This document shows positions 35,079 to 42,387 of a DNA stretch of 64,000 nt, in pieces. Positions within the stretch are counted from its first letter, which is position 1, and each line of letters opens with the position of its first letter. Source of the DNA: Halalkalicoccus sp. CG83 (GTDB lineage Archaea; Halobacteriota; Halobacteria; Halobacteriales; Halalkalicoccaceae); assembly GCF_037081715.1 (NCBI RefSeq), contig NZ_JAZDDH010000001.1, positions 2,046,001 through 2,110,000 on the forward strand, in the 5' to 3' direction. Below the pieces are notes generated by a model. It worked only from the letters and a program-made list of their open reading frames with translations. It made no database searches and was not told the DNA's origin. A program made the translations under genes and the position numbers.

Positions 35079-37727
<2,649 letters not shown>

Positions 37728-38462: not shown

Positions 38463-38530
38463 TTAGACTCGGATCTAGCCGTTGAATCCGAAGAACAACG
38501 GTGAAAGGCACGGAGGGTGTAGTGAGGAAC

Positions 38531-38734
38531 GTGACCCGAAACCTGCACGTGGGCGACATGAGCTGTGGAGGCTGTGAGACGGCCGTCGTCGACGCGCTTC
38601 GTGACGTGGACGGCGTCGAACGCGCGGAGGCCGACCACGAGACCGGACGCGTCACGATCGAGGGCGGAGCCGACGACGCCGACGTCCGAGCGGCGGTCGA
38701 GGAAGCCGGCTACACGTTCGAGGAGTCGGCCTGA
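38531..38734 (+). CDS. Heavy-metal-associated domain protein, CopZ-like copper chaperone
   Basis: 67 residues as called from the GTG at 38531 (VTRNLHVGDMSCGGCETAVV); GTG codons at 38522 and 38501 would lengthen it by 3 and 10 residues. The single HMA domain carries the metal site MSCGGC and ends VEEAGYTFEESA, the normal fold of CopZ/Atx1. It delivers Cu(I) to CopA or to the regulator in the cytoplasm. It is divergent from the Lrp/TRASH regulator gene, with a TTCGAAGG copy in the gap. The start is unsure; the family is not. Confidence 0.88.
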   Translation: MTRNLHVGDMSCGGCETAVVDALRDVDGVERAEADHETGRVTIEGGADDADVRAAVEEAGYTFEESA

Positions 38735-40459: not shown

Positions 40460-41674
40460 CTACTGGAGCGACTCGATGCCGTGGAGGAGCCCCCGTCGGC
40501 GGTCCTCTCCGATGAGGGGTCTGCCGTCGTAGGGGTCGTCGAGGTCGACCGGCGCACCGACGTGCGACCGCTTCGCCTCGCCGGCGCCGTACTGGTTGTC
40601 CGAGAACTCCCAGTCGTGCCAGCCGCTGCCGACGTTGACCTGTCGGTACGGGACCGGCTCGTAGCTGGAGTTCGCGACGTTCTCGATCGTGCCGTCGCCG
40701 TCCGCGGAGTGGAGGAACCGGTTGTTCTCGGTGACGTACCCGTGGGCCGGGTAGCCCCGGAAGGCGATGGCCTGTGCCCACCGTCCGTTGATGTTGTGGG
40801 TGAAGGCGAACGTACACCGGCGCACGTCGATGCGGCCGCCGGCGGTCAGGTCGCCGCTGTAGCCGTTCTCCGAGAGACAGTGCATGTCGACCGCGTGCGA
40901 GAGGGTCGACGGGCCGAACACCGAGTCCTCGACGGTGAACCCGCAGTCCTCGTGGCCGAACCCACAGATCGCGTGGCGCGTCGCGTCGAAGTAGCAGTAC
41001 TCGATCCGCGGGTGACCGCGGATGATGTCGACGACGTAGCCGGCCCCGGCCATCATGCAGTCGTGTCCGTAGACGTGGTGGATGTACGGCGAGTGCGAAC
41101 TCGAGGCCGAGCCGACGTTGATCGCCTGGACCGGCCAGCCGTAGATCTCGCAGTTGTCGATCTCGACGTCGCCGGAGACGACGTTGATGCCGCGGGCGTA
41201 ACGCGCCTGGCGCTTTCGTCGGCGTTCGGAGGCGCTGCCGCTGTCGAGCGGGATGTAGCCCGGGTAACGGGGGTCGTCGTAGTGGTCGTGGTAGGGGCCG
41301 CGGTAGCGCACGCCCGTCAGCCGGGAGCCGCCCGCCATCTGCATGACGCCGCGGCCGCTGCCGCCGTCCCACGCCTGGGAACTGCTCCCGTGGTCGGTCG
41401 TGTAGAGCAGCGCGCCGGGCAAGCCGTCGACGCCGCGCTCGGAGGCGACGGTCGCCCGAACGGTACCCGACCAGCCGCTCAGGTCGATCCGCTCGTGGCC
41501 GGGGATCCAGACGACGGTCCCTCGGCTCCCGATGTGGTCCAGCAGCTCCGAGCGGGAGGTGGCGACGACGTCGGCATCGGCGGCCGTTACGTCGCTTCGA
41601 TGGCCCTCGCCGCCGCCGACCTCGGAGCCCCGGAGACACTCGAGGATGCGTTCGTTGGTGAAGTGGTCCTGCAT
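40460..41674 (-). CDS. Right-handed beta-helix protein, second gene of an exported-protein operon
   Basis: 404 residues. The middle shows the repeating short beta-strand turns of a parallel beta-helix: GDVEIDNCEIYGWP, ARTINV-like INVGSASSS, HPRIEYCYFDATRH, CGFTVEDSVFGP, GRIDVRRCTFAFTHN and HGYVTENNRFLHS. Such folds bind or cleave polysaccharides. It has no signal peptide of its own although helix proteins of this type are usually extracellular. It starts 3 bases after the Tat substrate gene on the same strand, so it may ride out with that partner. The sequence has several His/Asp/Tyr residues, but no catalytic set I can name. Confidence 0.72.
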   Translation of the reverse strand: MQDHFTNERILECLRGSEVGGGEGHRSDVTAADADVVATSRSELLDHIGSRGTVVWIPGHERIDLSGWSGTVRATVASERGVDGLPGALLYTTDHGSSSQAWDGGSGRGVMQMAGGSRLTGVRYRGPYHDHYDDPRYPGYIPLDSGSASERRRKRQARYARGINVVSGDVEIDNCEIYGWPVQAINVGSASSSHSPYIHHVYGHDCMMAGAGYVVDIIRGHPRIEYCYFDATRHAICGFGHEDCGFTVEDSVFGPSTLSHAVDMHCLSENGYSGDLTAGGRIDVRRCTFAFTHNINGRWAQAIAFRGYPAHGYVTENNRFLHSADGDGTIENVANSSYEPVPYRQVNVGSGWHDWEFSDNQYGAGEAKRSHVGAPVDLDDPYDGRPLIGEDRRRGLLHGIESLQ

Positions 41675-41677
41675 GAT

Positions 41678-42349
41678 TCAGAGGTGAGCGTCGGCGTTCG
41701 CGGCGACGTGCAGGTCGAAGAAGTAGTACCAGAACCGATTGTCGGAGAAGTCGCCGGGCTTGGACCCGCCGAGCAGCTCGAGACCGTCGCGGCTCTGGCT
41801 CTCCCACCCGCTCCACTCGCCGCGTCGGAGCGGGAAGCCGCCGTCGCGGGTCAGCAGGTACTCGCCGGGTTCGAGCGGCATGTCGAGGTCGATCTCGTTG
41901 AGCCCCGCGTCGACGTCGATCTCCCGCCGGTGAACGGGCTCGAAGGCGGCGTCGCCGTCGTACGTACCGACGACCGCGGTGAACGAGCCCGACTCGTCCG
42001 CGTCGACCGTTGCCTCGCCGAGGTGGATCGGCCGGTCGGTCCGGAAGTGGATCCCCCAGTGGCTCGCTCCGTGCTGTTCGCCGCGTGGCGCCGCACCGAC
42101 GCGTCGTGCCGGGAACTCGAGCATGTCTGCAGCCGCGTTGAGGCGAGCGATCACCGCGTCGAGCGCCTCGCTGTCGACGTCGCCGCTAGTTCTGGCCTCC
42201 TGGCAGCAGCAGCAGCAGCAGTACCCTTCCTCCGCGCTCGCCGTCGACGTCGAGGCGGCGAGTCCCGTCGCACCGAGGGCGGTCATGAACGACCGCCGCG
42301 TCCAGTTGGCGTTCGGTTCCGCTTCGTCCGTTGTGTGTCCGTTGGTCAT
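41678..42349 (-). CDS. Tat-exported protein with a run of six cysteines
   Basis: 223 residues. The Tat signal WTRRSFMTALGATGLAAS is followed by a cleavable site near ASA, after which the mature chain begins EEGYCCCCCCQEART. The six Cys are coded by six TGC codons in a row, a triplet repeat (42203-42220). The rest is a compact beta-rich domain (about 150 residues) with WGIHFRTDRPIHLGEATV and EFLV-like MPLEPGEYLLTRDGG. I do not know the family. It heads the operon with the beta-helix protein. The Cys run could bind metal, be lipidated, or cross-link. Confidence 0.75.
   Translation of the reverse strand: MTNGHTTDEAEPNANWTRRSFMTALGATGLAASTSTASAEEGYCCCCCCQEARTSGDVDSEALDAVIARLNAAADMLEFPARRVGAAPRGEQHGASHWGIHFRTDRPIHLGEATVDADESGSFTAVVGTYDGDAAFEPVHRREIDVDAGLNEIDLDMPLEPGEYLLTRDGGFPLRRGEWSGWESQSRDGLELLGGSKPGDFSDNRFWYYFFDLHVAANADAHL
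42203..42220. repeat. Six-unit GCA/TGC trinucleotide repeat inside the Tat-substrate gene
   Basis: Six perfect GCA units on the plus strand (TGC on the coding strand). It is a potentially slippage-prone microsatellite that encodes the Cys run, so the number of Cys could vary between strains. Confidence 0.85.
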
Positions 42350-42378
42350 GTTTCCGCAACTGGCAAAAATAGAACTAA

Positions 42379-42387
42379 TTATATAAG
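42379..42387 (-). promoter_or_regulatory. TATA box of the Cys6/beta-helix operon
   Basis: The minus strand reads CTTATATAA, a near-consensus archaeal TATA box, 30-38 bases before the ATG at 42349, predicting a leader of under 15 bases. Confidence 0.6.

Follow-up and report, generated by a model that had tools for sequence, protein, structure and literature searches.

Export of a signal-less protein on the Tat signal of its partner (hitchhiker export) is established in Escherichia coli for HybO-HybC and PaoABC, according to the sections of the source drawn on here (PMC4273604), and the initial annotation of the locus studied in this work, which had stated that no system like it was described, was in this respect too strongly worded. 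A cellular enzyme with a tailspike fold is also on record, namely, WceF of Pantoea stewartii, which is reported in the excerpts consulted to remodel exopolysaccharide (PMC7949094). The locus analyzed here lies in a 64,000-nucleotide stretch of the genome of Halalkalicoccus sp. CG83 (the window) and consists of two genes, designated A and B, whose features are listed in Table 1; the matches listed in the literature on haloarchaeal tailspike and beta-helix proteins contained nothing on the A-B pair. According to our analysis, A and B may constitute a glycan-acting two-gene unit exported by Tat hitchhiking, a reading to which we give an even chance of being correct.

Table 1. Features of the A-B locus, with positions counted along the window
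Feature	Position	Strand	Description
TATA-like stretch CTTATATAAT	42378..42387	minus	Upstream of A, recognized by eye
Gene A	41678-42349	minus	Tat protein, 223 aa; helix and jelly-roll beta-sandwich
Tat signal region of A	42233..42349	minus	TRRSFM, 20 uncharged residues, A-S-A, then EEGY
(TGC)6 = Cys6 tract in the A linker	42203..42220	minus	Pure CTG-type tract; present in 0 of 13 relatives
A-B gap	41675..41677	minus	3 bases (ATC) between the TGA of A and the ATG of B
Gene B	40460-41674	minus	404 aa, right-handed parallel beta-helix, no signal peptide

The N-terminal part of A reads ...WTRRSFMTALGATGLAASTSTASA-EEGYCCCCCCQ, and the Tat cleavage site is predicted to follow A-S-A, directly before EEGY. 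The Tat signal model TIGR01409 was passed with 17.3 bits against a cut-off of 16.7, while the Pfam model PF10518 scored under its cut-off on A and a PHROG scan of A returned no family of note. Haloarchaeal Tat lipoproteins carry a lipobox Cys just behind the hydrophobic stretch; A was considered as a candidate for this class and rejected because, by eye, it has no lipobox and EEGY precedes its first Cys. The structural model of A, with a mean pLDDT of 64 and core blocks at 78 to 91, is a beta-sandwich, in which residues 60 to 78 form a helix and residues 100 to 170, approximately, a confident jelly-roll core. When this model was submitted to VIA-align, PHR domains were the best matches (Z scores of 10.2, 9.3, and 9.2), the baseplate protein of phage phi812 reached a Z score of 7.9, and many carbohydrate-binding modules (CBMs) were returned with Z scores of about 5.4 to 6.8, a range that the tool itself rates as common. 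Upstream of A, the stretch CTTATATAAT could act as a joint promoter of A and B.

B had been annotated as a signal-less beta-helix protein that starts 3 bases behind A, and both the sequence and the AlphaFold2 modeling bear this out. Its N-terminus contains no RR motif, and a hidden signal was ruled out, since the stop codon of A stands in frame just upstream of the ATG of B, so that B cannot be extended to include one. At the sequence level the beta-helix call is weak (PF13229 at an E value of 0.28, short of the cut-off); scans of B against Pfam, NCBIfam, and PHROG gave no meaningful family score, and its alignment against the sequences of solved structures gave no match. In an AlphaFold2 model of A and B as one joined chain (pTM of 0.60, with A mostly at pLDDT values below 50, too low in confidence for an A-B interface to be read from it), the B part, at approximately residues 251 to 600, shows strand-rich ten-residue blocks with pLDDT values of 52 to 96, most of them above 70. 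Foldseek retrieved GH87, PL6, pectin methylesterase, chondroitinase B, and pectate lyase for B, all with TM-scores that are low, in part because the query was the joined A-B chain. Invariant residues are present in the alignment of B, none of them assigned as catalytic. On the basis of this modeling, B is predicted to be a beta-helix of the pectate-lyase/tailspike type, and, for want of a family match at the cut-off, it is assigned to no family of lyases or hydrolases.

Across 391 genomes of the class, A has matches (E ≤ 0.001) in 12 genomes, which are strong in only six of them, all from one genus and including the genome of the window itself, and B has matches in 47 of the same 391 genomes. 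In Halalkalicoccus, where often several copies are found, B lies directly downstream of A on the same strand at 11 of the 12 readable A loci (the window, L065, L067 to L073, L077, and L114); the A loci L074 and L075, which lie at contig ends, and L078, a decayed pair, were not counted. At the remaining locus, L076, the A-like domain forms one protein with a different beta-helix. The gap between A and B amounts to 3 or 4 bases at L065, L067, L068, L069, L077, L080, L081, and L114 and to about 60 bases at L070 to L073. Both A and B are under purifying selection: two A copies in genome G060 differ by a dS of 0.275 and a dN of 0.010, and the B copies of the same two pairs differ by a dS of 0.326 and a dN of 0.013. 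The decayed pair mentioned above (L078:5702-6889, minus strand) is found in the same genome, its B interrupted by a stop codon and its A reduced to remnants. Two copies of A have no Tat signal, one in a provirus (L077) and the other at L065:6849-7493 (minus strand), where an otherwise intact A has a decayed signal, with RQ in place of RR and the hydrophobic stretch gone, and a core that shows a dN/dS of about 0.2 against its paralogues.

In four sister genomes (G215, G225, G060, and G195), a B paralogue carries an A-type Tat leader at its own N-terminus; we refer to these proteins as Tat-B. Their leaders score 67 to 136 against 11 A leaders and do not exceed 59 when compared with 21 other Tat leaders, the L065 A leader being excluded from this summary for having lost its signal. 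The best tree, which was built without the leader columns, places the Tat-B fusions in two positions among the paired B proteins, and they are united in 0 of 200 bootstrap trees; a single origin is not rejected by the AU test (p = 0.06), in a set without the rows for the lipoprotein, the provirus, and the MAG. At L076, Tat signal, A-like domain, and beta-helix are joined in one protein of 649 aa. Outside the genus, a Tat-like motif is found upstream in 16 of the 24 B homologues fetched and is missing from 8, a count in which the start position of L045 is uncertain. Two signal-less B homologues in the genome of the window, L055 and L056, have no adjoining Tat partner. Both of these proteins (L055:5634-7310, minus strand, and L056:6165-9389, plus strand) contain C-terminal domain repeats of the YYEFEFSVDGDVEKS type, with more copies in L056.

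Genes for glycan enzymes accompany several of these loci. The gene order in G060 is A, B, DUF7344, a signal-bearing polysaccharide deacetylase, and Tat-B, and homologues of DUF7344 and of the deacetylase (83% and 90% identical) occupy the same place in G215, where the contig opens with the final part of a B gene, followed by DUF7344, deacetylase, and Tat-B. Tat-B is adjoined by a polysaccharide deacetylase in G225 and by a GH97 enzyme in G195; at the window locus itself, A and B have no glycan-enzyme neighbors. In light of the deacetylase and GH97 neighbors and of the fold matches of A and B, a role of the pair in surface or matrix polysaccharide is our best guess.

The description of A as a Tat protein with six cysteines encoded by a TGC repeat proved correct, the six codons being consecutive (42220-42203). 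When the window was shuffled 100 times by dinucleotide, no (TGC)6 tract arose, and six TGY codons in a row are found at two sites in the 3.64-Mb genome to which the window belongs, the tract in A and L088, of which the former alone is in a Cys frame supported by homology, L088 being judged by eye. Runs of six consecutive TGY codons occur in 146 of the 391 genomes, and at 30 such loci inspected by eye (L084 to L113) the run mostly seems to be in a Leu or Ala frame or antisense to another gene; at L092, L093, and L095, we take the TGY repeats to belong to the Leu run of a short TatA-type-like frame (PGGPEVLLLLLLVVLLFGANKIPKLA). The leader and the domain that flank the Cys6 run are read in the frame used by the relatives. 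These are 13 A-type proteins (L065, L067 to L077, and L114, with L076 being the fusion and L114 a MAG locus), none of which contains the run; the longest run anywhere is two, in L076, which has nine cysteines. The alignments of the distant A relatives L061 (33% identity) and L062 (32%) are likewise free of a Cys run. The 13 relatives include L069 in G225 and L074 in G195, which share the chromosomal position of the window A and adjoin the same YdjM-type gene. Since the run is missing in the relatives and the linker is fast changing and little constrained, with dN/dS values for leader plus linker of 0.47 to 0.81 (where computable) versus 0.07 to 0.45 for the mature part, Cys6 is best read, from these sequence comparisons, as a recent lineage-specific expansion of a triplet repeat with no conserved role. 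As the comparison indicates, a striking motif of low complexity can be of recent origin and lack conservation.

The initial annotation had suggested that the cysteines bind metal or crosslink, and it had named absence of the run from all relatives as the finding that would count against its proposal; absence is what the 13 relatives read display, and the suggestion is not supported. A functional run, serving metal binding or crosslinking of A after export, is in our judgment very unlikely. Six consecutive Cys residues are very improbable by chance, and the pair lies near window positions 35079-37727, which we take to encode a copper-type P-ATPase with two GMSCxTC-type motifs, and 38501-38734, presumably a small HMA-domain open reading frame with GMSCGGC. 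However, the run occurs in no other A, it sits in a linker that evolves fast, and the same ATPase adjoins a Cys-less A at L069, where P-type ATPase and regulator stand beside A as in the window, and also the G195 B gene on the matching contig L081, the separate contig that holds the ATPase/regulator side of the G195 locus. A was also rejected as a Cys-cluster metal-binding protein, as its cysteines are not conserved and 12 of the 13 relatives lack Cys altogether. That the run is an assembly or sequencing artifact of a short repeat is hardly probable: it is known from the assembled sequence, but the frame is intact on either side of it, and 18 bases would be short for current sequencing.

As for export, we propose that A and B would first fold and associate in the cytoplasm and would then be exported jointly by Tat on the signal of A; outside the cell, A, by means of its PHR/CBM-like beta-sandwich, would hold on to a glycan of the surface or matrix, which the beta-helix of B would bind or cut. 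Complex formation, export of B, and glycan activity are the parts of this proposal that we infer; the sequence traits of a hitchhiker pair are themselves found, namely, a Tat signal on A, none on B, and conservation of the adjacent pair. Co-export is favored by the conserved adjacency, the A-type Tat leaders on B paralogues, the L076 fusion, and the glycan-enzyme neighbors taken together, and with this comparative support the idea appears strengthened, if still unproven. Weighing against it are the two A copies with no Tat signal (L065 and L077), the signal-less B homologues for which no Tat partner is known, and the lack of glycan-enzyme neighbors at the window locus. Alternatively, A could be exported alone, with B being cytoplasmic or an uncoupled gene that merely stands beside A, which we deem possible, if somewhat unlikely. 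Consistent with it, B is signal-less, as are homologues of B for which no Tat partner is known (L055, L056, and 8 of the 24 outside the genus), and at L065 the Tat signal of A is gone, with both A and B still intact. On the other hand, an uncoupled B is at odds with its place directly downstream at 11 of 12 A loci, with the gain of A-type Tat leaders by B paralogues, and with L076, in which a beta-helix and an A-like domain make up a single Tat protein.

A further alternative concerns the origin of the pair and is compatible with hitchhiker export. At L077, in genome G134, an A-B pair with no Tat signal (46% and 43% identical to the window A and B proteins, respectively) lies between tail-fiber-like genes and a holin-like gene (E value of 0.005), in the tail region of a provirus whose terminase, portal, head protease, and tape-measure genes are found further upstream on the same strand. 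Here, A and B keep together as neighbors with no signal, in a setting in which cytoplasmic virion assembly would presumably make one dispensable. The same provirus has, at L119:1132-3432 (minus strand) and directly behind the tape-measure gene, a 767-aa gene with the Tat-like start TTRRSFFGVLGAAAGAVGYLFG; such a signal is unusual for a tail gene, and the gene has no PHROG match at E ≤ 0.001. Virion structural genes surround the pair at L077 only, and not at the window locus, where the neighbors, scanned in part, look cellular and where we recognized no viral gene close by; the portal of the L077 provirus had no match in the genome of the window. The pair might be a virus-derived tail adhesin pair (fiber plus spike) domesticated through the Tat signal on A, or a virus might have captured a cellular pair, and the copies that are secreted may mask the receptor of the virus or change it; we regard this account as unlikely. 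The Tat-less pair in the provirus tail region argues for it, as do the Foldseek matches against viral models, weakly, to tailspikes and tail fibers. Against it, L077 is the sole viral copy found, with no homologue of A or B in a pattern-limited search of IMG/VR or in INPHARED, and the trees leave the direction of transfer unsettled; moreover, B homologues occur widely in cellular genomes and mostly bear Tat motifs, which makes capture of a cellular pair no less likely than domestication. More doubtful is a wider scheme in which one adhesin pair would be common to a tailed virus of archaea and the genus that it infects, serving in virions as a signal-less tail module and being exported whole from cells via Tat, with the signal on one partner, where its several copies would remodel or mask surface glycan and thereby virus attachment.

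Should B indeed be exported on the signal of A, the pair would represent an archaeal Tat hitchhiker pair composed of a glycan-binding protein and a beta-helix, and the sister species already provide a natural control in their Tat-B proteins, which carry the leader themselves. Through the copy in the provirus, a connection between surface proteins of the host and tail adhesins of the virus becomes open to testing.

Among known systems, the pectate-lyase-like families PL6, GH87, and PL1 are similar to B in fold, whereas B has neither a match to a sequence family nor an identified active site. Phage tailspikes and tail fibers have the beta-helix fold in common with B, and one A-B pair is located in a provirus tail region; unlike them, the window pair has a Tat signal and no viral gene recognized in its immediate neighborhood. 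B is like WceF in being a cellular protein with a tailspike-like right-handed beta-helix, the action on exopolysaccharide being that of WceF, whereas WceF, unlike B, is a trimer encoded in a bacterial exopolysaccharide cluster, and the parts of the publication consulted make no mention of an A-type Tat partner (PMC7949094). HybO-HybC and PaoABC are described, in the sections drawn on, as cofactor-loaded redox enzymes with demonstrated complexes (PMC4273604), and the A-B pair is instead made up of a putative binding protein and a beta-helix, with complex and export predicted, and shares with these E. coli systems the Tat signal on one partner and a signal-less second partner.
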